Positions 7,630 to 25,853 of a stretch of 32,733 bases of DNA are shown here, piece after piece. The notes beneath the pieces are model-generated. The model saw only the letters and a list, made by a program, of their open reading frames with translations. It had not been told where the DNA came from and searched no databases. Source of the DNA: Dehalococcoidia bacterium (GTDB lineage: Bacteria > Chloroflexota > Dehalococcoidia > UBA2979); assembly GCA_029246995.1 (NCBI GenBank), contig JAQWMB010000022.1, positions 1-32,733 on the forward strand, given 5' to 3'. A program made the translations under genes and the position numbers. Positions within the stretch are counted from its first letter, which is position 1. Every line of letters starts with the position of its first letter.

Positions 7630-8388
7630 TTACTTTTTATTACTGTTATTCAAAAAAGCTTTTTTAGCTTCAATCGCTTCATCTGAAGATTGTAAAATCT
7701 CAGTTTGTGTTTGTTCAAATTTATAGGCATTCTTCAAATCCATCCATTCGATTTGATTTAAAGTCGATTTAGCCATTCGTAATCCCATAGACATCTTTTT
7801 TGCAATTATCTCTGCATATGACATGGCAACATTTAATAAATTATCTACGGTTGTTACCTCAATAACGGCCCCATACTGCTTAGAATCTTCTGCAGAAAGC
7901 CTAGTTGCTGTAAAATTCATCATTCTAGTAACTGGTTGAGGAAAAATTCTTTGTAAATGTCCAGCTCCACCTAATAATCCAACATCAATTTCAGGTAAAC
8001 CAAAATTTGCATTATCACTAGCAACTAAAAAATCACAAGATGCTGCAATAGCTAATCCTGCACCTAATGCAGGACCATTAATTGCACCAATTACTGGAAC
8101 TGCGCATTCATAAATAGAGTTAAAGGTTTCACGAGCTCTGCGGTAATGAGCACTAGGATCATTTTGACTATTACCAGCTGGCAGCCTGGAATTAAGATCT
8201 ACTCCAGCACAAAAAGCCCTAGAACCAACAGCAGTTAAAATGACTACATTTACATCATTTTTTGTCTGAAAAGAGTCAAATGTTTTAATAATTTCATTAT
8301 TGCTGTCAGCAGTTAAAGCATTCACTGGAGGATAATCCATAGTGACAATTGCAACTTTATTTTTTATTTCAACGTTAAGCGGTGACAT
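7630..8388 (-). CDS. Enoyl-CoA hydratase/isomerase family protein
   Basis: This is a crotonase-fold protein of 252 aa that should act on an acyl-CoA thioester in the cytoplasm. Both oxyanion-hole segments are visible: FCAGVDL and NGPALGAGLAIAASCD. Of the two glutamates used by classical hydratases, the first (in GGGCE of the rat enzyme) is Ala here (GAGLA), while the second is kept in FGLPEIDVG. That pattern fits an isomerase-like or other crotonase reaction as well as hydration. The ATG is preceded by AAAGGG with 5 nt spacing. It is the last gene of a minus-strand set with the DUF35 and thiolase-like genes. Confidence 0.85.
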   Translation of the reverse strand: MSPLNVEIKNKVAIVTMDYPPVNALTADSNNEIIKTFDSFQTKNDVNVVILTAVGSRAFCAGVDLNSRLPAGNSQNDPSAHYRRARETFNSIYECAVPVIGAINGPALGAGLAIAASCDFLVASDNANFGLPEIDVGLLGGAGHLQRIFPQPVTRMMNFTATRLSAEDSKQYGAVIEVTTVDNLLNVAMSYAEIIAKKMSMGLRMAKSTLNQIEWMDLKNAYKFEQTQTEILQSSDEAIEAKKAFLNNSNKK

Positions 8389-8413: not shown

Positions 8414-8839
8414 CTATAATGGCTGAAACTTAGGTAAAGTTATATCCTCATTGATTTTTTCAAATATAATTCCAACAGACATTCCAACTTCAACATTATT
8501 CACATCTGCATTAATAAGATTAGTAATTAATTTAGGTCCTTCTTTTAATTCAACCAAGGCAAAAATATAAGGTCCTTGTGAAGCAATTTCTTGAAAATGT
8601 ACATCAGCTGCTCGATGAACAATTGTATATGAAAAAAGTTTACCTACTCCAGACACTTTCTCCCAATCTAAATTACTAGAAAAACAACCATTATTTGGAC
8701 AATATGCTTTAGGATACATAAACATATGACCGCAATCATTACATTTAGGTATTAATAACTCATTATTAGCAAGCCCATCCCAAAAAGGCTTTGCTTCTGT
8801 AGTTATTGTAGGTATAGGTAAATTGTATTCATCAGTCAT
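8414..8839 (-). CDS. DUF35 zinc-ribbon/OB-fold protein (acyl-CoA-associated)
   Basis: A small 141 aa protein with the two-part DUF35 layout. An N-terminal helix (KPFWDGLANNELLIPKC) leads into a rubredoxin-like zinc ribbon with ligands C33, C36, C47 and C52 (CxxC...CPxxxC). An OB-fold follows, with the GxGKLFSYTIVHRA strand typical of the family. Family knowledge: DUF35 proteins bind CoA thioesters and partner with thiolase-like proteins, for example the ChsH2 DUF35 domain with the steroid side-chain aldolase Ltp2. Its position directly downstream of a thiolase-like gene fits that partnership. The start is the ATG at 8839 with GGAG 6 nt upstream; a TTG at 8851 would add four residues. Confidence 0.85.
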   Translation of the reverse strand: MTDEYNLPIPTITTEAKPFWDGLANNELLIPKCNDCGHMFMYPKAYCPNNGCFSSNLDWEKVSGVGKLFSYTIVHRAADVHFQEIASQGPYIFALVELKEGPKLITNLINADVNNVEVGMSVGIIFEKINEDITLPKFQPL

Positions 8840-8864
8840 ACATTTCTCCAAATACTTTTATCAT

Positions 8865-8921
8865 TTAATTCGGTTCTAAGCCTAGAACCAGTGAACACAT
8901 TTCACTTAAAAAACCACCTCA
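8865..8921 (-). other. In-frame continuation of the thiolase-like gene past its TGA
   Basis: Directly after the TGA (8919-8921) the same frame reads GGFLSEMCSLVLGLEPN and then TAA (8865-8867). That segment looks like the last strand of thiolase-like proteins of this group, which typically end in a G-x-GG-x-LS...LVLG pattern. The TGA replaces one residue of the glycine-rich loop. Either a nonsense mutation or sequence error has clipped the protein, or the codon is read through. The downstream DUF35 start lies 25 bp past the TAA. Confidence 0.65.
8872..8906 (-). repeat. Two abutting perfect hairpins just after the TGA
   Basis: On the minus strand, positions 8906-8890 form AGTGAA / TTCACT with a 5-nt ATGTG loop. 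Positions 8889-8872, starting at the next base, form GGTTCTA / TAGAACC with a GGCT loop. Both stems are perfect (6 and 7 bp). They lie in the continuation reading frame, 12 and 29 nt after the TGA. No T-run follows, so they are not ordinary intrinsic terminators. Confidence 0.6.
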
Positions 8922-10022
8922 ACCATTAACAAAGCAATAATCAAGATTTTCAACTTGCCTGTCTCCTGCAAGGCCTTGCATTTGTCGAACAGATTCTGTA
9001 ACGTGAGACATCCCTCCTCCAACTTGAGGTTGACCATACGATAATTGCCCACCATGCGTATTAATTGGTAATGATCCCTTGTATGTAATGTCTGTAGACT
9101 CAACAAAGGCGCCAGCTTCTCCCTTAGGAACGAAACCAGCATCTTCCAGGCTTATTAAAACAGTTATTGTATAGCAATCGTACAATGAAACCATGCTAAT
9201 ATCAGTGGGCTTTAATTCAGCCATATCAAAAGCCTTTGCTGCAGAAATTGCAACTGGAGAAGTAGTCAGGGAAGTTGCATTTACAAGAGTTGATCTATCA
9301 ACTGCCATGCCAGCTCCCAATAAATAAACTGGCTTATTGTTTGCATCTTTTGCCCTATCAGCAGAAGTAACTATCACTGCTTCAGCTCCACCTGTAGGCA
9401 TAACACATTCCAAAAGTCTTAAGGGATTAGATATCATTCTAGAATTTACAACATCATCAACTGAAATAGAAGCACCATAAAAAATAGCATTTGGATTTGC
9501 TTGAGCATTAAATCTTTGCTGAACTGCTACTTGGGCACGTTGTGCATCTGTAACACCGTATTCATGCTTGTATCTATTTGCAATCAGAGCATAGTAGCCA
9601 GTTGCACCTGACGCAGGTCCAAATGGATTATCAAACTGAGGTCTGTGTAAGGGAGAAGAATCAGTAGCCATGTCACCACCCGGAGCTAATCCACCTATAA
9701 CACATAAAACTGTCTGTGCTAATCCTGCATTAATTGCCATAGCAGCCATTGTCACACTAGCAGCACCACTCGCACCCTCCATTGCTACACCAGAAGACCA
9801 TGTTGGCCTCATGCCAAGATACTCAGCTAACGCAGTAGGAGTTTCTCCAGTTACTTGAGTAATTAATCCATCAATATCATTCTGAGATAAAGCAGCATCT
9901 TTCATAGCATTTATTGCTGCTTCAGCAGCAACTCCAAGACCACTTCTGCCTGGCATTTTTCTTTCAGGTTTCACGGAACCTGTAGCAATAATTGCAGCCT
10001 TCCCTTTTAAACTACCCGACAT
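8919..10022 (-). CDS. Thiolase-like protein (SCP-x/Ltp2 type), ended by an in-frame TGA
   Basis: The protein has a thiolase fold of 367 aa up to the TGA. The nucleophile position of thiolases (C in CASG) is Gly83 in EGASGAASV, so Claisen chemistry is unlikely. YDCYTITVL (Y281, Y284) and NTHGGQLSYGQP (residues 321-332) match the lipid-transfer-protein thiolase group, whose member Ltp2 is an aldolase needing a DUF35 partner; a DUF35 gene lies just downstream. A retro-aldol or acyl-CoA-binding role is inferred. The TGA falls inside the conserved C-terminal loop and the family-like sequence resumes in frame until a TAA at 8865, giving a normal length of about 385 aa. The start at 10022 has GGAG 8 nt upstream. 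Confidence 0.8.
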   Translation of the reverse strand: MSGSLKGKAAIIATGSVKPERKMPGRSGLGVAAEAAINAMKDAALSQNDIDGLITQVTGETPTALAEYLGMRPTWSSGVAMEGASGAASVTMAAMAINAGLAQTVLCVIGGLAPGGDMATDSSPLHRPQFDNPFGPASGATGYYALIANRYKHEYGVTDAQRAQVAVQQRFNAQANPNAIFYGASISVDDVVNSRMISNPLRLLECVMPTGGAEAVIVTSADRAKDANNKPVYLLGAGMAVDRSTLVNATSLTTSPVAISAAKAFDMAELKPTDISMVSLYDCYTITVLISLEDAGFVPKGEAGAFVESTDITYKGSLPINTHGGQLSYGQPQVGGGMSHVTESVRQMQGLAGDRQVENLDYCFVNG

Positions 10023-12439: not shown

Positions 12440-14734
12440 ATGGTTAGCACACAAAAAAAAGCAGACAAAACATACAAGGTTATTGGAACGAGGCCAGTTC
12501 GGCCTGATGGGGTTGATAAAGTTACTGGCCGTGCAAAATATGGTGCAGATATCCAATTACCTGGGATGTTATTTGGTCGAGTATTACGAAGTCCTCATGC
12601 CCATGCAATTATAAAAAAAATTGATACATCAAAAGCATTAGCACTACCTGGCGTTAAGTCAGTGATTACTCATAAAGATTTACCAACTGCAGCAGATGCT
12701 GCTTTAAATCTAGGTGAAACTACCGACAATTTAAAATGGATATCGGATAAAGTACTTGCAGCTGAAGATGCATTATTCCATGGCCAGGCCCTTGCAGCTG
12801 TCGCTGCAGTTGACAAGCATATTGCAGAAGATGCCTTAGCATTAATTGACGTTGAATATGAAATTTTAGAACCTGTCCTTTCAGTACATACTGCAATGGA
12901 TAAAAAGACTCCTAGTATTCATGATAATATGAAAACTGTCGATATGATTGCTCGTTTTCAAGTTGGAGAAATCAGTGAAACTCAAATTAATAATGTTGCA
13001 AGCATACTTGACCTAGAGCTTGGCGACTTAGATGCAGGATTCAAAGAAGCTGATATCATAATTGAGCGCGAATTTGAAACAGGAACTTATCATCAAGGAT
13101 ATATCGAGTCTCATAATGGTACAGCACAGTGGAATGAAAACGATGAAGTAACAGTATGGCTCTCAACACAAGGTGCATTCAATGCAAGAGATCAGCTTGC
13201 AGCTTTACTACAAGTACCTATGTCAAAAATCAAAGTGATACCAATGGAGATTGGTGGTGGGTTTGGTGGCAAGATACCGATGTACATGGAGCCTCTTGCA
13301 GCTATTATGTCTAAGCAAACTGGTAAGCCAGTAAAAATGCATATGCAGCGTGATGAAGTTCTTCTTGCAACTGGTCCAACTTCAGCAACATACATAAAAG
13401 TAAAAGTTGGTGCAAAAAATGATGGCACAATTGTTGCTGCTGATGCTTATCTAGCTTACGAAGCAGGAGCATATCCTGGTTCACCAGTAAGCGGTGGGGG
13501 CGTATCAATGTTCATGCCTTATGCAATCCCAAATGTAAGGGCACTTTGCTTAGATGTCATCGTCAATAAAACAAAAACTGCTGCTTATAGAGCTCCGGGC
13601 GTTCCAGCTGCAGCTTTTGCCATTGAATCAATCATTGATGAACTTGCTGAAAAATTAGAAATTGACCCAATTGCTATCCGCATGCACAATGCTGCAGAAG
13701 AAGGCACGCGACGCCATGATGGAGTACTAGCACCATCAATGGCTGTGAAAGAGTTATTAGAAGAAGCGCAAGCAACTGAGCATTGGAATGCAGAGCTTAG
13801 CGATCCATCAATTGGTCGAGGTATTGCAATTGGTGCATGGGGTAATGGTGGCATGGAATCAAGTGCCTCTGCCTCAATAAATAGTGATGGAACAATCAAT
13901 CTGAATACTGGTTCCGTTGATATAGGTGGACAGAGAGCAAGCCTAGCTATGCAGCTCGCAGAAACACTTGGGGTAGAGTATGATTCCATTAAACCACAAG
14001 TCGTAGACACTGATTCTATTGGTTACACAGCAGTTAGTGCAGGCAGTAGAACAACATTTGCTACTGGGATAGCAGTAATTGAAGTTGGAAATAAAATTAA
14101 AAAACAAATTATTAATCGAGTAGCAACATTTTGGGAAATAGATGCAAATGCATTAAAATACAATGATGATGGAAGTGTTTCTAGTCCTGATAAAATCATA
14201 AACTTTAAAGAAATTGCTGCGATGCTTCCTAATACTGGAGGAAGAATCCAAGCTAGCATTGACATTCAAGCAACTACGCATGTTCCTACAATCGCTTGCC
14301 ATATCGTTGATGTAAAAGTTGATGAAGAGACTGGTAAAGTTGATATTTTACGTTCAACAGCGCTTCAAGATGTTGGAAAAGCAATTCATCCTGCATATGT
14401 AGAAGGACAAACTCAAGGTGGTATTTTACAAGGAATAGGAATGGCTTTATATGAAGAATATTATTACGATGATAAGGGAATATTAAAGAATGCAAGTTTA
14501 CTTGATTACAGAATGCCTACTTCATACGATGTGCCATTTACAGAAATAATCTTAGTAGAAAAACCAAATCCTGGTCATCCATTTGGCGTTAAAGGTGTAG
14601 GGGAAGTGCCGATTGTCCCTCCTTTAGCAGCAGTTGCAAATGCGATTTATGATGCAGTTGGTGTACGACCAAATATATTGCCGGTTAACCCAAGAAGACT
14701 CAGTGTTCTCTTAAAAGAAAAGAATAATAAGTAA
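12440..14734 (+). CDS. Molybdenum hydroxylase catalytic (molybdopterin) subunit, copy 1
   Basis: The 764 aa large subunit belongs to the xanthine dehydrogenase/aldehyde oxidase family. Molybdopterin motifs include GGGFGGKIPMYMEP (about 271-284), TAAYRAPG (380-387) and VDIGGQRAS, and the catalytic base Glu722 lies in GVGEVPIVPP. The active-site loop reads AYRA, not the AYRC of form I CO dehydrogenase or the AYRG common elsewhere, so CO oxidation is not supported. Hydroxylation of a heteroaromatic or acyl-CoA substrate is inferred. It has a strong AGGAG site. Copy 2 at 15052 is a close mosaic paralog that shares even the 14 nt upstream of the ATG. A MoaD-like gene follows after 6 bp. Confidence 0.92.
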   Translation: MVSTQKKADKTYKVIGTRPVRPDGVDKVTGRAKYGADIQLPGMLFGRVLRSPHAHAIIKKIDTSKALALPGVKSVITHKDLPTAADAALNLGETTDNLKWISDKVLAAEDALFHGQALAAVAAVDKHIAEDALALIDVEYEILEPVLSVHTAMDKKTPSIHDNMKTVDMIARFQVGEISETQINNVASILDLELGDLDAGFKEADIIIEREFETGTYHQGYIESHNGTAQWNENDEVTVWLSTQGAFNARDQLAALLQVPMSKIKVIPMEIGGGFGGKIPMYMEPLAAIMSKQTGKPVKMHMQRDEVLLATGPTSATYIKVKVGAKNDGTIVAADAYLAYEAGAYPGSPVSGGGVSMFMPYAIPNVRALCLDVIVNKTKTAAYRAPGVPAAAFAIESIIDELAEKLEIDPIAIRMHNAAEEGTRRHDGVLAPSMAVKELLEEAQATEHWNAELSDPSIGRGIAIGAWGNGGMESSASASINSDGTINLNTGSVDIGGQRASLAMQLAETLGVEYDSIKPQVVDTDSIGYTAVSAGSRTTFATGIAVIEVGNKIKKQIINRVATFWEIDANALKYNDDGSVSSPDKIINFKEIAAMLPNTGGRIQASIDIQATTHVPTIACHIVDVKVDEETGKVDILRSTALQDVGKAIHPAYVEGQTQGGILQGIGMALYEEYYYDDKGILKNASLLDYRMPTSYDVPFTEIILVEKPNPGHPFGVKGVGEVPIVPPLAAVANAIYDAVGVRPNILPVNPRRLSVLLKEKNNK

Positions 14735-15051: not shown

Positions 15052-17352
15052 ATGGTTAGCACACAAAAAAAAGCAGACAAAACATACAAGGTTATTGGAA
15101 CGAGACCAGTTCGGCCGGATGGCTTAGATAAAGTTACTGGCCGTGCAAAATATGGTGCAGATATCCAATTACCTGGGATGTTATTTGGTCGAGTATTACG
15201 TAGTCCTCATGCCCATGCAATTATAAAAAAAATTGATACATCAAAAGCATTAGCACTACCTGGCGTTAAGTCAGTGATTACTCATAAAGATTTACCAACT
15301 GCAGCAGACATTGCTCTTGACTTAGGTGAAACAACCTCAAATATGAAATGGCTTTGCGACAAAGTCCTTGCAGCTGAAAAAGCATTATTCCATGGCCATG
15401 CCATTGCAGCTGTCGCTGCAGTTGACCCTCACATTGCAGAAGATGCCTTAGCATTAATTGACGTTGAATATGAAATTTTAGAACCTGTCCTTTCAGTACA
15501 TACTGCAATGGATAAAAAGACTCCTAATATACACCCAAATATGAAAACTGTCGATATGATTGCGCGTTTTCAAGCAGGGGAGCCAAGTAAGGTTCAAATT
15601 AATAATGTTGCAAGCATACTTGACTTAGAGCTTGGCGACTTAGATGCAGGATTCAAAGAAGCTGATATCATAATTGAGCGTGAATTTGAAACAGGCACTT
15701 ATCATCAAGGATATATTGAATCTCATAATGGTACTGCTCAGTGGAATGAAAATGATGAAGTAACAGTATGGCTCTCAACGCAAGGACATTTTAATGCAAG
15801 AGATGTGCTATCTAAACTTCTGCAAGTGCCTATGTCAAAAGTCAAAGTGATACCAATGGAAATTGGTGGTGGTTTTGGTGGCAAGATACCAATGTATATG
15901 GAGCCTCTTGCAGCTATTATGTCTAAGCAAACTGGTAAGCCAGTAAAAATGCATATGCAGCGTGATGAAGTACTTCTAGCAACTGGTCCAACTTCAGCAA
16001 CATACATAAAAGTAAAAGTTGGTGCAAAAAATGATGGCACAATTGTTGCTGCTGATGCTTATCTGGCTTATGAATCAGGAGCATATCCTGGTTCGCCAGT
16101 TGGTGCTGGTGCAGCTTCAATGTTTTTACCTTATAACATAGCTAATCTTAGAGCGCATTGCTTAGATGTTATCGTCAATAAACCTCACACAGCAGCATAT
16201 AGAGCTCCAGGAACACCCGCTGCAGCTTTTGCCATTGAATCAATCATTGATGAACTTGCTGAAAAATTAGAAATTGATCCAATTACTATTCGCATGCACA
16301 ATGCTGCAGAAGAAGGCACGCGAACTTCAGATGGTCGACTTGCTCCTGCATCATTGGCTGTAAAAGAGTTATTAGAAGAAGCTCAAGCAACTGAGCATTG
16401 GAATGCAGAGCTTAGCGATCCATCAATTGGTCGAGGTATTGCAATTGGTGCATGGGGGAATGCTGGCTTAGAATCAAATGCATATGCCTCAATAAATAGT
16501 GATGGAACAATCAATCTTAATACTGGTTCTGTTGATATAGGTGGTCAAAGAGCAAGCTTGGCTATGCAATTAGCAGAAACCCTTGGCGTAGATTATGATT
16601 CTATTAAACCACAAGTTAGTGACACAGATTCTATTGGTTACACAGCCGTCACAGGGGGAAGCCGCACTACTTTTGCAAGCGGAATAGCAGTTGTAGAAGT
16701 TGGTAATAAATTAAAAGAACAAATTATTGATCGAGTAGCAACATTTTGGGAAATAGATGCAAGTCAAGTACACTATGGCGATGATGGTACTCTCAATGGA
16801 CCAGAAGATAAATCTATAAAATTTAGTGGCATAGGTAAAATTTTATCAAGAACTGGTGGCACTATTCAAGCAAGTGCCACAGTAAAACCAAATACTCAAG
16901 TAGCAACATTTGGATGCCATATCGTTGATGTAAAAGTTGATGAAGAAACTGGTAAGGTTGATATTCTACGCTCAACAGCGCTTCAAGATGTTGGAAAAGC
17001 AATTCATCCTGCATATGTAGAAGGACAAATCCAAGGTGGTATTTTACAAGGGATTGGAATGGCTTTATATGAAGAATATTATTACGATGACAAGGGAATA
17101 TTAAAGAATGCGAGCTTACTTGATTACAGAATGCCTACTTCTTATGATGTGCCATTTACAGAAACTACCTTAATAGAAAAACCAAATCCTGGTCATCCAT
17201 TTGGCGTTAAAGGTGTAGGAGAAGTGCCGATTGTCCCTCCTCTAGCTGCAGTTGCAAATGCGATTTATAATGCAGTTGGTGTACGACCAAATATATTGCC
17301 GGTTAACCCAAGAAGACTCAGTGTTCTCTTAAAAGAAAAGAATAAAAAGTAA
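15052..17352 (+). CDS. Molybdenum hydroxylase catalytic (molybdopterin) subunit, copy 2
   Basis: This 766 aa paralog of the 12440 gene has the same family motifs: GGGFGGKIPMYMEP, TAAYRAPG, VDIGGQRAS and Glu724 in GVGEVPIVPP. The two genes alternate between near-identical blocks, including synonymous positions, and diverged patches. The first 260 nt differ at only about six sites. The stretch before the AYRA loop (SPVGAGAASMFLPYNIANLRAH here) and residues around 560-600 differ strongly. It has the same AGGAG site and upstream 14 nt as copy 1. It probably pairs with the single FAD and 2Fe-2S subunits as an alternative catalytic subunit. Its last codons form the left arm of the terminator palindrome. 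Confidence 0.92.
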   Translation: MVSTQKKADKTYKVIGTRPVRPDGLDKVTGRAKYGADIQLPGMLFGRVLRSPHAHAIIKKIDTSKALALPGVKSVITHKDLPTAADIALDLGETTSNMKWLCDKVLAAEKALFHGHAIAAVAAVDPHIAEDALALIDVEYEILEPVLSVHTAMDKKTPNIHPNMKTVDMIARFQAGEPSKVQINNVASILDLELGDLDAGFKEADIIIEREFETGTYHQGYIESHNGTAQWNENDEVTVWLSTQGHFNARDVLSKLLQVPMSKVKVIPMEIGGGFGGKIPMYMEPLAAIMSKQTGKPVKMHMQRDEVLLATGPTSATYIKVKVGAKNDGTIVAADAYLAYESGAYPGSPVGAGAASMFLPYNIANLRAHCLDVIVNKPHTAAYRAPGTPAAAFAIESIIDELAEKLEIDPITIRMHNAAEEGTRTSDGRLAPASLAVKELLEEAQATEHWNAELSDPSIGRGIAIGAWGNAGLESNAYASINSDGTINLNTGSVDIGGQRASLAMQLAETLGVDYDSIKPQVSDTDSIGYTAVTGGSRTTFASGIAVVEVGNKLKEQIIDRVATFWEIDASQVHYGDDGTLNGPEDKSIKFSGIGKILSRTGGTIQASATVKPNTQVATFGCHIVDVKVDEETGKVDILRSTALQDVGKAIHPAYVEGQIQGGILQGIGMALYEEYYYDDKGILKNASLLDYRMPTSYDVPFTETTLIEKPNPGHPFGVKGVGEVPIVPPLAAVANAIYNAVGVRPNILPVNPRRLSVLLKEKNKK

Positions 17353-17410: not shown

Positions 17411-18382
17411 TTAAATATTACTAAAATCTACATTACTTAATACTTGCATTGCTGCACCATGGCATATTGCATCACGCTCTTCTTCAGTGAAATCAATGTT
17501 GTATTTCTTACCCCATTCTGGTAAGTTTTTAAAAATATCTACCCATTTTTCTGTTTGACCTCGTGCTCTACTACCAACCCCCGCTTGAGGTAAATCCGTA
17601 CCCCAAACAATTCTTTCAGCACCCATTGAATTAATAAAAATTCTAATCACTTTTAATAATTCTGGAATATTTTCATCAGTAACAGCACCTAATGCTTGCC
17701 AGTCACAAATATCAAGCCATATATTTCTCTTACCTCTTGCCGCTTGCAATCCTCTCCAAAATGCTTTTGTTTCAAAAGGAGCTTGGAGGTTTGTATGACC
17801 CATCATAATGCGAAGATCGGGAAGTTCCCTAGCTACCAATTCAACCCATTCAGGCCATGCCCAAACATTTCCGCCAGTATGTATTAAGACTGGTACGTCT
17901 AACTCAATAGCTTTTCTGTACATTGGAAAGCATCGCTCATCATTAGCTTGATATCCATTTGGTGGATAAACTTTTAATCCTACTGCTCCACGCTCTTTAA
18001 CAGCTCGTTCAAAGATAGCAGTTGCTTTAGGTCGACGAGGGTCAACTCCACAAAACCATGACAATTTATCTGTCTTATCAGATACTTCACCAGTTAAACG
18101 ATCAAATTCTTCATATTCAAGTTGATTGTCTTCCTCAGGCCCATAAGCCATTCCCCAGTCTAAAGCAAGAATGACAGAATGATCTATGCCATAATGATCC
18201 ATTTCATCTATAGCAATTTGTCCAGTTTCATCCATTGTTGGAGATTGTTTAATACGATCAAGAACTTGCTCAGTTGTACGTCCAGTTTTCTTAGCCAAAG
18301 CTTCAGCATTATTTCTTAAATGACTTGGTGGAAACCATTCAAATCCCCAAAGGTGTCTATGTACATCAATTAACTTAACCAT
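17411..18382 (-). CDS. Metal-dependent amidohydrolase (ACMSD-like, COG2159), copy A
   Basis: This 323 aa TIM-barrel protein belongs to the amidohydrolase-2/ACMSD-like family, whose members decarboxylate or hydrolyse aromatic acids. Metal ligands can be placed at H8 and H10 (DVHRHLW), H167 (LIHTGGN), H195 (MGHTN) and D262 (WGTDLPQAG). Non-oxidative decarboxylation or C-C hydrolysis of a ring-cleavage product is the best guess. The ATG has AGGA 8 nt upstream. It is the last gene of the long minus-strand catabolic set and faces the terminator palindrome. Copy B lies 38 bp upstream and is nearly identical in DNA over the 3' part. The middle (about residues 90-115) is the most diverged segment. 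Confidence 0.88.
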   Translation of the reverse strand: MVKLIDVHRHLWGFEWFPPSHLRNNAEALAKKTGRTTEQVLDRIKQSPTMDETGQIAIDEMDHYGIDHSVILALDWGMAYGPEEDNQLEYEEFDRLTGEVSDKTDKLSWFCGVDPRRPKATAIFERAVKERGAVGLKVYPPNGYQANDERCFPMYRKAIELDVPVLIHTGGNVWAWPEWVELVARELPDLRIMMGHTNLQAPFETKAFWRGLQAARGKRNIWLDICDWQALGAVTDENIPELLKVIRIFINSMGAERIVWGTDLPQAGVGSRARGQTEKWVDIFKNLPEWGKKYNIDFTEEERDAICHGAAMQVLSNVDFSNI

Positions 18383-18420
18383 TTTTAAATCCTAACTAAT
18401 AAATTGAACTAAATTATAAC

Positions 18421-19389
18421 CTAAAATTTGATATTACTAAAAGCAGCCTCAGCAGCTTTATAACACATGCCATCTCGCTCTTCTTCAGTAAAATCAATGT
18501 TGTATTTCTTACCCCATTCTGGTAAGTTTTTAAAAATATCTGTCCAAGTTTCAGTCTGCGCACGAGCACGACTACCTACTCCTGCTTGAGGTAAATCCGT
18601 ACCCCAAACAATTCTTTCTGGGCCTTTTGTGTTTAGAAATATTCTTAAAACTTTTAATAATTCTGGAATATTTTCTTCTTTAACAGCACCAAGAGCTTGC
18701 CAATCACATAGGTCCAGCCAAATATTATTATGCCTAGCACCAGCTTGCAAACCTTGCCAATATGCCTCTGTTTCAAAAGGAGCTTGCAAATTAGTGTGCC
18801 CCATAATTATTCTCAAGTCAGGAAATTGTCGTGCTACAAGTTCTACCCATTCTGGCCAAGCCCAAATATTACCTCCAGTGTGTATTAAAACTGGAACGTT
18901 AAGCTCTGCTGCTTTGGCATACATTGGCAAACATCTTTCATCATTTGCTTGATAACCATTAGGAGGATACATCTTTAAACCTACAGCACCCCATTCAGTT
19001 ACAGCTTGCTCAAATAGAGCAACTGCCTTTGGTCTACGTGGATCATAGCTTGCCATTGCATACAATTTGCCTGGGTATTTCTTGCAAACTTCTTGAGCAA
19101 GTCTATTAAATTCTTCAGCAGGTAATTGATTATCTTCGCCAGGACCATACGCTAAACCCCAATCAAGCACTTGAATAATTGATACATCAATGCCATAGTG
19201 ATCCATTTCATCAATAGCTACTTTACCAGTTGCATCCATTGTTGGAGATTGCTTAATTCGCTCAAGTACCTCATCTACAGTTCGCCCAGTTTTCTTTGCA
19301 ATTGGTTCTGCAGAAAACTTAGGTAAATGACTAGGAGGAAACCAGTCATAACCCCATAAATGTCTATGAATATCAATTATTTTTGTCAT
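18421..19389 (-). CDS. Metal-dependent amidohydrolase (ACMSD-like, COG2159), copy B
   Basis: This 322 aa paralog of copy A keeps all putative metal ligands: H8 and H10, H170, H198 and D265. It shares WFPPSHL near the N-terminus, YPPNGYQANDERC, the NLQAPFET segment and the FKNLPEWGKKYNIDFTEEERD tail. The start is the ATG at 19389 with AGGAG 5 nt upstream; a TTG at 19410 would add seven residues. The two copies next to a pair of hydratase paralogs suggest that parallel pathways handle two similar substrates. A hydrolase of a cyclic amide or lactone cannot be excluded. Confidence 0.88.
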   Translation of the reverse strand: MTKIIDIHRHLWGYDWFPPSHLPKFSAEPIAKKTGRTVDEVLERIKQSPTMDATGKVAIDEMDHYGIDVSIIQVLDWGLAYGPGEDNQLPAEEFNRLAQEVCKKYPGKLYAMASYDPRRPKAVALFEQAVTEWGAVGLKMYPPNGYQANDERCLPMYAKAAELNVPVLIHTGGNIWAWPEWVELVARQFPDLRIIMGHTNLQAPFETEAYWQGLQAGARHNNIWLDLCDWQALGAVKEENIPELLKVLRIFLNTKGPERIVWGTDLPQAGVGSRARAQTETWTDIFKNLPEWGKKYNIDFTEEERDGMCYKAAEAAFSNIKF

Positions 19390-19432
19390 TTGAACTCCTA
19401 AAAATTTCAAAAATTAAACGATGTAGCAAAAA

Positions 19433-20320
19433 CTAATAAGGCTTAAAATCTTCATCAGTTTTTACAGCTTTCTTATAATCTGATTTTCTTTTCTCAACAA
19501 AAGCTTCCATGCCTTCAAGCAAATCGTCATCAGATTTTACCTTTTCAATCATCTTCATTTGATTTGCTTTTCTTGTTTCATAATAATTTTCATATCGTAA
19601 ATTACCACTTTTTCTTTGCAAATCTATAGAGCCTTGTTTTAGTCTTTGGATAGAATCTGGTCCCATAAGTGCAGTAGCTTTTGCTAAATCAATAGCTTTT
19701 TCTAAAATTTGATCTTTTGGTAAAACGTAGTTAGCAAAACCATAACTTAGACATTCTTGTGCAGTTAAGCGTCTGTCAGTCATAGTTAATTCTCTCGCTA
19801 TCATTGCAGGGAGAAAAGTATTCATAGAATTCATGCCTCCTACATTAATTTTTGCATGCAAGTCAGCAATATAAGTATCATCAGACATTACTATCATGTC
19901 ACACATTATTGCAATTTCAAGACCACCTCCAACAGCTGCTCCATTCACCGCTCCAATAAGTGGCTTCCAAACATCATAATGATTACATTGTGTAGCAAAC
20001 ATTACATGATTTGGATCATCAATTGGCCTCAATGCATCTGAGTTTTTTTCTGCATACGTACCAACAAATTCTTTGATATCTCGTCCTGCACAAAAAAATC
20101 TACCACTTGCAGTAATAACTGCTGCTTTAATGTTGTCATTGTTATGTACCTCATCAAAGCAAGCAACGACATCTCTATGCATAGCAGTATTTAGTGAATT
20201 AGCTGCTTCAGGTCTATTCATCGTAATCACAGCTACATCATCAACAATCTCAAAAGTCGCAGCTTCAAGATTATTTAAATCTAAATTTAATTCTTTTGTT
20301 ATATCTTTACCAAATTGCAT
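19433..20320 (-). CDS. Enoyl-CoA hydratase/isomerase family protein, copy A
   Basis: This 295 aa crotonase-fold protein has oxyanion-hole segments FFCAGRDIKEF and GAAVGGGLEIAIMCD. The first catalytic Glu of hydratases is kept (GGGLE). The region of the second reads IADLHAKINVGG, with no Glu, so simple syn-hydration is doubtful. The ATG at 20320 has AAGGGGG 5 nt upstream and is preferred to a TTG at 20341. Its C-terminus (EAFVEKRKSDYKK) is typical of the fold. It is 36 bp downstream of copy B at 20357 and probably in the same transcript. An N-terminal extension of about 20 residues precedes the domain. Confidence 0.88.
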   Translation of the reverse strand: MQFGKDITKELNLDLNNLEAATFEIVDDVAVITMNRPEAANSLNTAMHRDVVACFDEVHNNDNIKAAVITASGRFFCAGRDIKEFVGTYAEKNSDALRPIDDPNHVMFATQCNHYDVWKPLIGAVNGAAVGGGLEIAIMCDMIVMSDDTYIADLHAKINVGGMNSMNTFLPAMIARELTMTDRRLTAQECLSYGFANYVLPKDQILEKAIDLAKATALMGPDSIQRLKQGSIDLQRKSGNLRYENYYETRKANQMKMIEKVKSDDDLLEGMEAFVEKRKSDYKKAVKTDEDFKPY

Positions 20321-20356
20321 ACAAACCCCCTTAAGATTCAAATGACTAAAAAGAAA

Positions 20357-21244
20357 TTAACCCTCGCGATTGTCTGAATCGTTAGATGTTACTGGCCTTT
20401 CATAGGCAGAATCTCTTTTTTCAACAAATGCCTTCATGCCTTCCATTCTGTCATGATCTCCAGCAGTTTCAGCCATTTGCGCACGTACAATTTTACGTCT
20501 TTCTTCATAGAATTCTTCACCATGCAGATTGCCGCTAGCAAGCTGTAAATCAATTGATCCCTGCTTTAATCTTTGAATAGAATCTGGTCCCATAAGTGCA
20601 GTTGCTTGAGCAACTTCTATTGCCTTTTCAAGAACTTGATCTTTTGAAAGCACGTAATTTGCAAAACCATACCTAAAACATTCTTCTGCAGTTAATCGAC
20701 GATCAGTCATTGTTAATTCTCTTGCAATATTTGGAGGCAGAAATGTATTCATGGAAACCATTCCACCAACATTAATTTTTGCATGAAGATCTGCAATATA
20801 AGCATCTTCTGCCATAACTATCATGTCACACATTATTGCAACTTCTAAGCCACCACCAACGGCAGAACCTTGCAAAGCACCAATTAAAGGCTTTTTAACA
20901 TGCCAGTGATTTGCGAGTCTTCCAAACATTTCGCCATCTGGATCGTCTATTTTACGAAGCTCTGCAGCTTCACCTTCACCATATGTGCCAACAAATTCTT
21001 TGATATCTCGTCCTGCACAAAAGAATCTACCTGAACCAACAACAACTGCTGCTTTAATATCGTCATTATTGTTGATTTCTTCCCAACATGCCCCAACATC
21101 TCTGTGGATTGCAGTGTTCAGCGAATTCAATGCTTCTGGGCGATTCAATGTAACTATTGCTACGCCATCCCGAATTTCAAAAATTGCTGATTCTAAATTA
21201 TTTAAATCGACCCCATAGGTCGCATTACTATTATATGAGCCCAT
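20357..21244 (-). CDS. Enoyl-CoA hydratase/isomerase family protein, copy B
   Basis: This 295 aa paralog of the 19433 protein has the same FFCAGRDIKEFVGTY and VGGGLEVAIMCDMIVM segments, the same IADLHAKINVGG without the second Glu, and the same long conserved stretch ARELTMTDRRLTA. The two copies diverge mainly at both ends and around residues 90-120, the area that lines the acyl pocket in this fold. It has AAGGAG 8 nt before the ATG. A candidate promoter lies within the end of the upstream LLM gene. The reaction is unknown; the substrate is presumably a CoA thioester from the CoA transferase in the same set. Confidence 0.88.
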   Translation of the reverse strand: MGSYNSNATYGVDLNNLESAIFEIRDGVAIVTLNRPEALNSLNTAIHRDVGACWEEINNNDDIKAAVVVGSGRFFCAGRDIKEFVGTYGEGEAAELRKIDDPDGEMFGRLANHWHVKKPLIGALQGSAVGGGLEVAIMCDMIVMAEDAYIADLHAKINVGGMVSMNTFLPPNIARELTMTDRRLTAEECFRYGFANYVLSKDQVLEKAIEVAQATALMGPDSIQRLKQGSIDLQLASGNLHGEEFYEERRKIVRAQMAETAGDHDRMEGMKAFVEKRDSAYERPVTSNDSDNREG

Positions 21245-22442: not shown

Positions 22443-24938
22443 TTATTTACTTGGCCTAAATCCCAGCTCTGCGCCAGTCATAGGAGCATCTCCAACTATG
22501 CCATCTTTCTTATATGAATCTATCTTTTCATGATCCATTTCTAGAACTTCATGAAATACATAATCATTGTGTTCTCCAAATCTAGCAGGCTGTTGTTCAA
22601 TTTCTGGCCTACGACCATTTACTGTCCATGGAGCATTATATACTGGATAAGTACCCAGATCATCTCTAAATTGCCAAGAGATAAATTGCCTAGAAGACAA
22701 AGAACCTTCAGAATCAAAATCTCTTCCTCTAAGAATTCTTTGACAAGGGACTCCTTTAGATTGAAGAACTTTTTCTATAGTTCTTGGTGCTGTTGACTTA
22801 CATATTGCTACTAATTCTTCTTCAATTTTATCTGGATCTGAAATTATATCTCTATCTAAATCAACTGGTTGCATGCTAGTCAATGTACCACTGTAATTAG
22901 CTATTTCCATTCCTGATTTTAATATGGCAATGCCATCTAGCAATCTATTTCTTTGTTCATCATTCGTACAAGTAATACTAATCCAGCCATCTCTTTCATT
23001 TGTGTCATAAATATTATAAGGATAAAAATCATCTTTATTCATACAGTCAACGCCTGCACCTTTGATTTCTGATTCGTTCAATTGTGATTCTACAAGGATT
23101 TCTTGAGAATAAGTAATACAAGTTTCTACACATGAAATATCTACATGCATGCTTGTCTTTTCATCACTTATTTTGTTCAATAATAATCCTTGAATCACAT
23201 GAAACGCTGTAGCAGTCCCATTCACTGGATCGCCATATGCACTCAATGGAATAGAGTCCTCGTTTTCATAACCTGTCCCAACAAAAAGACCTGCGAATGC
23301 AGCCTGTCCATCTCCAAATAATCTCCAACTACTCCTTGGTCCATTCTCGCCATATCCAGATAAAGTTGCAAAAATAATTTTTGGATTAATTACTTGAAGG
23401 GCTTTTATGTTTAAATCATATTTTTTTCTTGTGTCATAGGACATATTTGTGAGCACGATATCACTTTTTTTAACAAGATCTATCATTATTGACATGCCTT
23501 CTTCAGTACTTAATTCAATACCTGCAGATAATTTATTTCTTGCAAGACCTAACCACATAATATACCTATCCCATGGCTTGTCTCCAGGATCATTATCGGG
23601 GTATGAAGAACTGTTTTCTGGAGGAGTAGTCCATCCTCTCAGCATATCCATCCATTCGATCCCCTCAATTTTAATAATTTCAGCACCAAGATCTCCAAGT
23701 AAAGTTGCACCTTTTGGAGCAGCCCACGTATTTGTTAAATCTAAAACTCTAATGCCTTTTAATGGCTTAGTTATGTCAAATATAGAATGATCAATCATTG
23801 CAGGATTTTTATTAACTTTTAATTTATTTTCTAATATATATGCTCCTATAGCAGAATACTTTACGCCAGCATGAGTCCTTTGAATTGGAATAGACTCATG
23901 TCCTGAAAATCTCCCTACCCCAACAGGATACTTAACTGTTTTTGAGTTAATAGTTATTTCTTCAAAAGCATTACGTGAATCTAGTTGTGGGTCAGCTAAC
24001 ACTTCACTAGGTAGCCGTGTTGTAGAAATTGGCATTCCTGATTCTTGACCAAGCTCCACAATTTCCATAGCAGTTCTAGAAAAAAACCATGGAACAAGCA
24101 AGGCTTCAAGATCTTCCATATTTTGCGCTCTATTAAAGCGAGCCATAAATCTTTCATCTCTTTCTAAGTCTTCTCTACCAATCATTCTTGCAACTCTAGG
24201 CCATTCTCTATCATGAAATAACATATTTACACTTTTGCCATCTGCTGTCTGAAAACCAGATGACTGTGCTGTTGATGTTGCATTAAGTGTTTGCATTATT
24301 TCTACTTGATTAAAATGCCAATTAGAAGCACCTAATTCAGAATGCATATATAAAGATTCTTGTATTGAGATATCAATCAATACTCCAGATTCCAAATTAT
24401 GCACTTGATTTTGAAAGAGATATGCCGAGCTAGCAAGTGCTGCATGCCATGCTGCAGATACATATGCCTGCGGACCTTTCATTGGAAGAGGTGTCTTGCC
24501 TTTTTCTCCAATTCTTATCATGAATGGACCACTAGCTTGTGAAGTTAATTCACTACTAGGCACATCTGCATGAGAGCCATAAATTCCATAAGGAGTAATG
24601 CTACACCAATGTGCTTTATTGCCTTTAATCTTATATTGCGAACGTAAATCAATTCCTTTTTTCAGCCAAAATGAAGGTAAATGATCATCAATAATTAAAT
24701 CAGCTATAGATATTAATTCATCAATCAACTTCTTATCCACTGTTGATACGTTCAATGAATCTTTACCATATGCTAAGCAATTTTTTAATTCATCTAATCT
24801 TTCCCAAGGTACTTCTTCTAACTCAGTAGAATTCACTTTTAAGACTCTAGCGCCCATTCGTTGCAATAAAAGACTTGCTTGAGCAGATGCAACTGAGTGA
24901 CCTAACTCTATAACCAGATAAGGGCTACTTACTGTCAT
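22443..24938 (-). CDS. CaiB/BaiF family (type III) CoA transferase, two fused domains
   Basis: This 831 aa protein is about twice the usual 400 aa of the family. The N-terminal domain runs from ELGHSVASAQASLLLQRMGARVLKV to about residue 370. The second begins near residue 390 with KGIRVLDLTNTWAAPKGATLLGDLGAEIIKIE. The second domain keeps the GDPVNGTATAFHVIQGLL segment with the Asp expected to carry the CoA. The first half has weaker motif matches and may be structural. It should move CoA between acids and so activate the pathway substrate. The start at 24938 overlaps the preceding TGA as ATGA, typical of translational coupling; an ATG at 24950 is the alternative. Confidence 0.88.
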   Translation of the reverse strand: MTVSSPYLVIELGHSVASAQASLLLQRMGARVLKVNSTELEEVPWERLDELKNCLAYGKDSLNVSTVDKKLIDELISIADLIIDDHLPSFWLKKGIDLRSQYKIKGNKAHWCSITPYGIYGSHADVPSSELTSQASGPFMIRIGEKGKTPLPMKGPQAYVSAAWHAALASSAYLFQNQVHNLESGVLIDISIQESLYMHSELGASNWHFNQVEIMQTLNATSTAQSSGFQTADGKSVNMLFHDREWPRVARMIGREDLERDERFMARFNRAQNMEDLEALLVPWFFSRTAMEIVELGQESGMPISTTRLPSEVLADPQLDSRNAFEEITINSKTVKYPVGVGRFSGHESIPIQRTHAGVKYSAIGAYILENKLKVNKNPAMIDHSIFDITKPLKGIRVLDLTNTWAAPKGATLLGDLGAEIIKIEGIEWMDMLRGWTTPPENSSSYPDNDPGDKPWDRYIMWLGLARNKLSAGIELSTEEGMSIMIDLVKKSDIVLTNMSYDTRKKYDLNIKALQVINPKIIFATLSGYGENGPRSSWRLFGDGQAAFAGLFVGTGYENEDSIPLSAYGDPVNGTATAFHVIQGLLLNKISDEKTSMHVDISCVETCITYSQEILVESQLNESEIKGAGVDCMNKDDFYPYNIYDTNERDGWISITCTNDEQRNRLLDGIAILKSGMEIANYSGTLTSMQPVDLDRDIISDPDKIEEELVAICKSTAPRTIEKVLQSKGVPCQRILRGRDFDSEGSLSSRQFISWQFRDDLGTYPVYNAPWTVNGRRPEIEQQPARFGEHNDYVFHEVLEMDHEKIDSYKKDGIVGDAPMTGAELGFRPSK

Positions 24939-25759
24939 CTCGCTTTCCATTCTGGTTTTCTTTTTTCAACAAATGATCTTGGTCCTTCTTTATAATCTTC
25001 AGTATCACTCAAAGCATGCCCCAAATCATGTCCAAAATTACTACCCTCTGAGATGCCAATACCATGTTCACGTAAATTCCAAGCTCCTTCTAAAAATGCT
25101 CGTGTAGCTAAAGGAGAAACTTGTAAAACTTGTTTTGCAAGTTCCTTTGCACGTGTTTGCAAATCGTCTTTAGGAACAATTTCTGAAACAACACCTAATT
25201 GATGCATTCTTTCAGCATCTAATCTTTCACCAGTAGTACCTAACAATGCCATTCTTAAACCTACATTCCATGGCAACCCACCATTCGCAAGGCCATAAAT
25301 TTCACTTGCAGGTACTTGTCCTACAGATAAGTGTGGTTCAAGAAACTTAACATGCTCTGCAGCAATTACAATATGTGATTCCCACATAAAAATCAGACCT
25401 CCACCAGCGGTAAGTCCATTGAGCGCTAATATGATTGGCTTGAAGAATTTATATTGCCAAGGCAATCCAAATATTCTGCGTTGACCTAACCGACCTTCCG
25501 ATCCACTTGCTGCCTCGCGCATATCAGCCCCAGTACAAAAATGCCTGTCGCCGGCACCAGTTAAAATAACAGCCCATACAGCATCATCTTTACGAGCACC
25601 CTGCCAAAAATCTGCCAGTTCAGCATGCATCTGTGCATTTAAAGCATTCCCATTCTCAGGCCTATTCAGTGTGACTGTAGCAATTTTATCTTCTATAGAT
25701 ACTGAAATTGCTTGATATGATTCATTAGATTCATAGGATTTTTTTTCAAAATTACTCAT
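24935..25759 (-). CDS. Enoyl-CoA hydratase/isomerase family protein (divergent)
   Basis: This 274 aa crotonase-fold protein has oxyanion-hole segments FCTGADMRE and NGLTAGGGLIFMWES. Both hydratase glutamate positions are lost: the first is Ile (GGGLI) and the second His (FLEPHLSVG). It is therefore unlikely to be a plain hydratase; isomerase, hydrolase or lyase activity is possible. The ATG at 25759 with AAGGA upstream is preferred to a TTG at 25783. Its TGA stop overlaps the CoA transferase start, so the two proteins are probably made in fixed ratio. It is 31 bp past a candidate internal promoter region. Confidence 0.86.
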   Translation of the reverse strand: MSNFEKKSYESNESYQAISVSIEDKIATVTLNRPENGNALNAQMHAELADFWQGARKDDAVWAVILTGAGDRHFCTGADMREAASGSEGRLGQRRIFGLPWQYKFFKPIILALNGLTAGGGLIFMWESHIVIAAEHVKFLEPHLSVGQVPASEIYGLANGGLPWNVGLRMALLGTTGERLDAERMHQLGVVSEIVPKDDLQTRAKELAKQVLQVSPLATRAFLEGAWNLREHGIGISEGSNFGHDLGHALSDTEDYKEGPRSFVEKRKPEWKAR

Positions 25760-25853
25760 AATATATTCCTTAAAATAGTCCAAGTAAAAACTTTAACTAT
25801 TAATATTTTAACTAAGCGCTGGGTAATTACTTCAAATACATACCAAAGTTAGA

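Follow-up and report, generated by a model that had tools for sequence, protein, structure and literature searches.

An in-frame UGA predicted to encode selenocysteine in a thiolase-fold enzyme of Dehalococcoidia with a probable DUF35 partner

How is a UGA codon to be read when the gene that it interrupts continues, in the same frame, directly beyond it? This question is raised by a thiolase-like gene in a stretch of 32,733 nucleotides from a Dehalococcoidia bacterium (contig JAQWMB010000022.1 of assembly GCA_029246995.1; the whole stretch is called the window here). The initial annotation of the window had considered a nonsense mutation, a sequence error or a recoded codon, with selenocysteine (Sec) regarded as possible but unproven. 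The answer matters beyond this locus, as standard annotation would truncate such genes.

Results

The UGA codon and its conservation

The predicted thiolase-fold selenoprotein gene occupies positions 8865–10022 of the minus strand and comprises 385 codons, TGA included, plus a TAA. The open reading frame starts with the ATG at 10022 and encodes 367 amino acids ending in DYCFVNG, at which point it meets the TGA (8919–8921, minus strand; codon 368), predicted to be read as Sec. Beyond the TGA the frame continues as GGFLSEMCSLVLGLEPN to the TAA at 8865–8867, for a total of 385 amino acids. The initial annotation had described a TGA after YCFVNG in a protein of about 385 residues, and both translation and homologues of the same length bear this out; the Thiolase_C_1 profile (PF22691) matches the product at 1.9e-48. 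It was also right that only one other gene ends in TGA. The 26 genes of the window end in TAA (17), TAG (8) and TGA (1), the last being the gene at 24935–25783, which overlaps the next start and indicates that TGA does act as a stop in the source genome. When the 16 codons after the in-frame TGA are compared with those of relative L006 (76% identical), 12 synonymous and 2 amino-acid changes are found, indicating that the tail is under selection as protein.

Homologue searches covered 60 relatives, 393 genomes of the class, 400 genomes of the phylum and two named loci, and the 94 distinct homologues extracted are a sample of best matches, not a census. An alignment of close homologues had been suggested as a check; in ours, column 368 carries TGA in 49 of the 94 genes and a sense codon in the other 45 (Asn 29, Ser 7, Gln 4, Thr 3, Trp 1 and Met 1). 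The 49 TGA genes are spread over 28 genomes and 8 families, a distribution that excludes a sequencing error or private mutation and leaves the recoded codon standing among the three options listed at the outset. None of the 94 homologues has Cys at this column; Cys counterparts are common for selenoproteins but are not obligatory. The initial annotation was thus correct that relatives lack Cys here, but its use of this absence as an argument against Sec does not hold, because neighbouring lineages carry Asn or Ser at codon 368 and the missing Cys is therefore a feature of the family.

The source genome is a 1.185 Mb draft, 89% complete, in which the window is contig 12. A search of this genome for Sec genes, also suggested earlier, found all four components: selA (7.5e-134), selB (316 bits, cut-off 242), tRNA-Sec with a UCA anticodon (65.7 bits, cut-off 47) and selD (365 bits). 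The selD gene carries its own in-frame TGA (L049:1531–1533, on contig 27 of genome G000) in the context NCAG-TGA-GG, so that SelD is probably itself a selenoprotein. Among the 28 genomes with TGA homologues, 25 have selA, and the remaining three (G028, G126 and G160) have tRNA-Sec. Since selA is present in 256 of the 393 genomes of the class, its co-occurrence with TGA is a consistency check and weak evidence. With the same codon conserved in 49 genes, a complete machinery and the conserved hairpin described below, Sec moves from a possible to a well-supported reading: the UGA at codon 368 is almost certainly decoded as Sec, and on these comparisons we regard the predicted recoding as very secure.

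A maximum-likelihood tree places all 49 Sec genes in one clade (support 95/81) together with three Asn genes (L094, L095 and L025), and the adjoining clades carry Ser or Asn at column 368. Given the three Asn genes, at least two losses of Sec appear to have occurred in selA-bearing genomes. In the simplest history, Sec would have replaced a non-Cys residue once and then changed to Asn twice. The nearest named relative, L003 (a Dehalococcoidia draft, 46% identity), groups inside the sampled class. One Sec subgroup (L075, L082 and L083) reads NT-U-RG in place of NG-U-GG.

A conserved hairpin downstream of the UGA

A candidate SECIS hairpin, AGUGAA-AUGUG-UUCACU, follows the UGA at 8890–8906 (minus strand), supported by folding, a synonymous-codon null, a sliding control and covariation of its pairs. 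It has six pairs, and the distance from the first base of the UGA to its stem is 15 nt. The hairpin that the initial annotation had noted behind the TGA is thus present. Taken alone, its energy is ordinary (z −0.03 relative to dinucleotide shuffles), and it is the comparison among relatives that makes it significant. The two arms co-vary, as in AGCGAG/CUCGCU, AGCGUG/CACGCU, AGCGUC/GACGCU and AGCGAC/GUCGCU. Compared with synonymous codons drawn at random according to the codon usage of each gene, the folds of Sec genes are more stable, with a mean z of −2.09 (Wilcoxon p=7e-15, ignoring relatedness). Asn genes, in which this hairpin is present but weaker, average −0.68, and other homologues 0.0. 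Arm pairing of 72% falls to 18–50% once the arms are slid. As the compared genes are related to one another, the p-values given for the hairpin are indicative.

Pair 19–27 of the hairpin couples residues 374 and 377, such that Glu or Asp occurs mostly with Ser, and Val or Ile with Thr. This coupling is significant in Sec genes (Fisher p=1.3e-5) and not in Asn genes (p=0.32), and the covariation of the two residues preserves an RNA pair. The hairpin loop contains the codon of residue 375, which is Met (AUG) in 46 of the 49 Sec genes; most others have Gln. Some Sec subgroups (L013, L064, L065 and L090–L092) use a different register of the hairpin.

A second predicted Sec site

The YDCYT motif of the window protein contains Cys283 (9174–9176, minus strand), the equivalent of the essential Cys304 of CtSal, the bile-acid side-chain aldolase of Comamonas testosteroni (PMC12329534). 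Among the 49 Sec members, this column holds a further TGA in 13 and Cys in 36. Column 283 is therefore a classical Cys/Sec pair and gives further support for Sec in this thiolase-fold family. A hairpin lies downstream of this TGA too, for example GAGGC-CGUGU-GCCUC, with a mean of −11.6 kcal/mol compared with about −7 in the Cys genes (synonymous-codon z −0.72, p=0.03).

Protein identity and active site

The best solved relatives of the window protein are CtSal (9MYR, 4e-89), 4U4E and Ltp2 (6OK1), followed by archaeal-type thiolases. NCBIfam 20.0 returned ordinary thiolase or lipid-transfer models only, all below their cut-offs. CtSal is a retro-aldolase that forms a complex with a DUF35 protein; Tyr302 and Cys304 of its YDCY motif are catalytic, the Cys being possibly activated by Gln347 and Gln352, the oxyanion hole consists of Gly391 and Gln161, and the thiolase nucleophile is replaced by Gly (PMC12329534). 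Numbering was carried over to the window protein by a fixed alignment offset, which gives Tyr281, Cys283, Gln326, Gln331, Gly370 and Gly83 as the equivalent residues; for the oxyanion Gln161, the alignment gives no clear equivalent. Tyr281, Gln326 and Gln331 are each present in 49/49 Sec members, and position 283 is Cys or Sec in every one of them. Tests for the classical thiolase motifs found Gly83 for Cys89 (CxS), GQP for the His of GHP, and YDCY for NEAF. Gly83 (9774–9776, minus strand), in the place of the thiolase nucleophile Cys89, is Gly in all homologues with an aligned residue, and it aligns to the Cys of CASG in 7yvy and 6esq.

Where, then, does Sec368 lie? A published structure-based alignment equates the NGG of MsTLP1 with the CXG motif (378–380) of the Zoogloea thiolase (PMC3406046). 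In classical thiolases, Cys378 of this motif acts as the base, accepting the proton of the substrate, and is not the nucleophile (PMC12329534, PMC3406046). Sec368-Gly-Gly370 corresponds to the NGG of MsTLP1, and the Asn paralogues read NGG at exactly that place; the alignment of Gly370 with Gly391 of CtSal agrees with U-G-G at the CxG position. Profile alignment to E. coli AtoB puts Cys363, and not Sec368, on the Cys of CxG. As this comparison sets a profile against one remote sequence, at the very end of the alignment, we prefer the mapping given by the structure-based MsTLP1 alignment and the CtSal oxyanion Gly. An AlphaFold model built from three sequences yielded no usable fold (pLDDT 36). 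From these alignments, Sec368 is likely at an active-site position and probably fills once more the position held by the catalytic Cys in classical thiolases; we hold its equivalence to the base Cys378 with good confidence.

Gene neighbourhood

Directly after the Sec gene lies a gene for a DUF35 partner with zf-ChsH2 and OB_ChsH2_C domains (Pfam; 8414–8851, minus strand; possible alternative ATG start at 8839). A DUF35 gene adjoins the Sec gene in nearly all loci. None was found beside it in L075, L082 and L083, and the L112 locus ends with its contig. An enoyl-CoA hydratase/isomerase gene follows (7630–8388, minus strand; ECH_1, 8e-44), in the same order in genomes G014 and G028, and its product could possibly supply a β-hydroxyacyl-CoA. 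The order shared by the window and both of these genomes is lipB/lipA, hydratase–DUF35–Sec gene, hydrolase and coxM/S/L.

Several loci (L074, L077, L080, L081, L092 and L117) contain tandem pairs of Sec genes with one or two DUF35 genes. Both copies have two TGAs at several of these loci; at L077 the copies differ, with two TGAs in one and a single TGA in the other. The tandem Sec genes could possibly give rise to heteromeric enzymes.

Repeated genes are found elsewhere in the window. Two tandem coxL-like genes for molybdenum-hydroxylase large subunits (12440–14734 and 15052–17352) are 88% identical in DNA and flank a small ThiS-like gene, and the regions 17411–19410 and 19433–21244 hold tandem pairs of amidohydrolase and of enoyl-CoA hydratase genes, each pair about 75% identical in DNA. 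A double-length CaiB-type CoA-transferase of 835 aa (22443–24950) contains two matched stretches within one protein. The CaiB, luciferase-like and cox/xanthine-dehydrogenase genes match features reported for SAR202 (PMC5395668; PMC10444878). With the placement of L003, this points to Chloroflexota and probably to Dehalococcoidia in a broad sense.

Discussion

Taken together, we consider it very probable that the UGA at 8919–8921 encodes Sec and that the product is a DUF35-partnered thiolase-fold aldolase or Claisen-type CoA enzyme in which Sec would be an active-site acid/base. The cell's own SelA, SelB, tRNA-Sec and SelD would decode the UGA, directed by the hairpin just downstream, and the full-length thiolase-fold product would work with the DUF35 protein of the neighbouring gene, as in Sal, Ltp2 and the archaeal-type thiolases. 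Tyr281 and Cys283 may act as they do in CtSal. Sec368, likely ionised at neutral pH, would provide a second active-site chalcogen and act as acid/base at the α carbon of an acyl-CoA in an aldol, retro-aldol or Claisen-type C–C step, its partner being Cys283 or, in some relatives, a second Sec. The computation shows the conserved codon, the Sec machinery, the hairpin and the place of Sec368 in the alignment; selenium incorporation, side-chain geometry, reaction and substrate are what we infer from these, and the aldolase role would follow by analogy with relatives at about 46% identity or less.

A redox role for Sec deserves weight as a minority reading. A selenenylsulfide or diselenide between Sec368 and Cys283 (or Sec283) could act as a switch on the enzyme or reduce a substrate, which would place Sec outside the C–C chemistry. 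The retention of Cys or Sec at 283 throughout the Sec members is what such a pair would predict, and a redox function is assumed for many selenoproteins (PMC13188914). Yet no CxxU or UxxC motif, redox domain or redox neighbour was seen, and the aldolase residues are conserved, so we judge this role unlikely. We are more doubtful still of a covalent role. Sec is a strong nucleophile, and in a thiolase fold that has Gly at the place of Cys89, Sec368 could in principle make up for the absent nucleophile by forming an acyl-selenide, which would make the enzyme a thiolase or acyl transferase. The relatives with Gly at that place, CtSal and Ltp2, are however aldolases, and the CxG position is that of the base rather than of the nucleophile.

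Both of these readings accept Sec. That the TGA is a true stop, through nonsense mutation or assembly error or as the end of a functional 367-aa form, is very improbable: TGA does terminate one other gene of the window, but this codon is TGA in 49 genes of 28 genomes, selected coding sequence lies beyond it, the Sec machinery and the hairpin are present, and the fold would presumably suffer without its last strand. The faintest prospect is that reassignment or readthrough of UGA inserts a different residue, for example Gly or Trp. The NG-UGA-GG context might accept Gly. Against this reading stand the Sec machinery of the genome and the 45 homologues without TGA, which include no Gly and a single Trp at this codon. 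In L012 and L014 the homologous gene has one UGA at the codon-368 position and a second at its expected C-terminal end, where UGA apparently terminates it. The meaning of UGA is therefore set by context, which, together with the other TGA stop of the window, argues against genome-wide reassignment. For codon 368 we accordingly rejected a nonsense mutation, a sequencing error and a reassigned code, on conservation across the 49 genes, context-dependent UGA and machinery.

Returning to Sec as an active-site acid/base, we lean, somewhat beyond an even chance, towards a new selenoenzyme class: a thiolase-fold C–C bond enzyme that would have lost the classical Cys and rebuilt its active site with Sec at the CxG base position, with two active-site Sec (283 and 368) in some relatives, with acid/base or covalent acyl-CoA chemistry in place of redox, and with Sec gained once from a non-Cys residue. 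An inventory of May 2026 lists 119 prokaryotic selenoprotein families and subfamilies, among which a thiolase-fold member is absent; its review table cites the families of Haft and Tolstoy 2025 (PMC13188914). Searches of full-text literature, mostly of papers available without subscription, found no thiolase-fold selenoprotein, so that a report elsewhere may exist. For deep-Sep, its authors point out that selenoproteins lacking Cys homologues may escape the method (PMC12013277). As no relative with Cys at the Sec position was found, screens that pair Cys with Sec would miss this family. The case suggests that a position need not hold Cys to acquire Sec, and that carbon–carbon bond chemistry on CoA esters may be one of the uses of Sec. 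The Sec gene group is widespread in a class that probably belongs to the Chloroflexota and that, for its large catabolic repertoire, has attracted interest in studies of the ocean carbon cycle.

Among known systems, CtSal (PDB 9MYR, PMC12329534) shares the thiolase fold, the DUF35 partner, the Tyr and Cys of YDCY, both activating Gln residues, the oxyanion Gly and the Gly at the nucleophile place, but carries Thr at the position of Sec368, and its DUF35 protein is fused to a MaoC hydratase. Ltp2 (PDB 6OK1), a cholesterol side-chain aldolase that works with the DUF35 protein ChsH2, shares the fold, the DUF35 partner, the catalytic Tyr of YDxF/Y and the Gly at the nucleophile place; it differs in having His for Cys (YDHF) and Tyr344 for Gln331, and it is without Sec. 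The biosynthetic thiolases of Zoogloea ramigera and E. coli (AtoB) have in common with the window protein the fold and a chalcogen at CxG (Cys378 there, probably Sec368 here), whereas the window protein lacks the nucleophile Cys89 and has Gln for the GHP His and YDCY for NEAF. With the known bacterial selenoproteins (119 families, PMC13188914) the family shares the in-frame UGA, the downstream hairpin and SelA, SelB, tRNA-Sec and SelD; unlike the usual selenoproteins, its main Sec site is without a Cys homologue, while its second Sec site has one.
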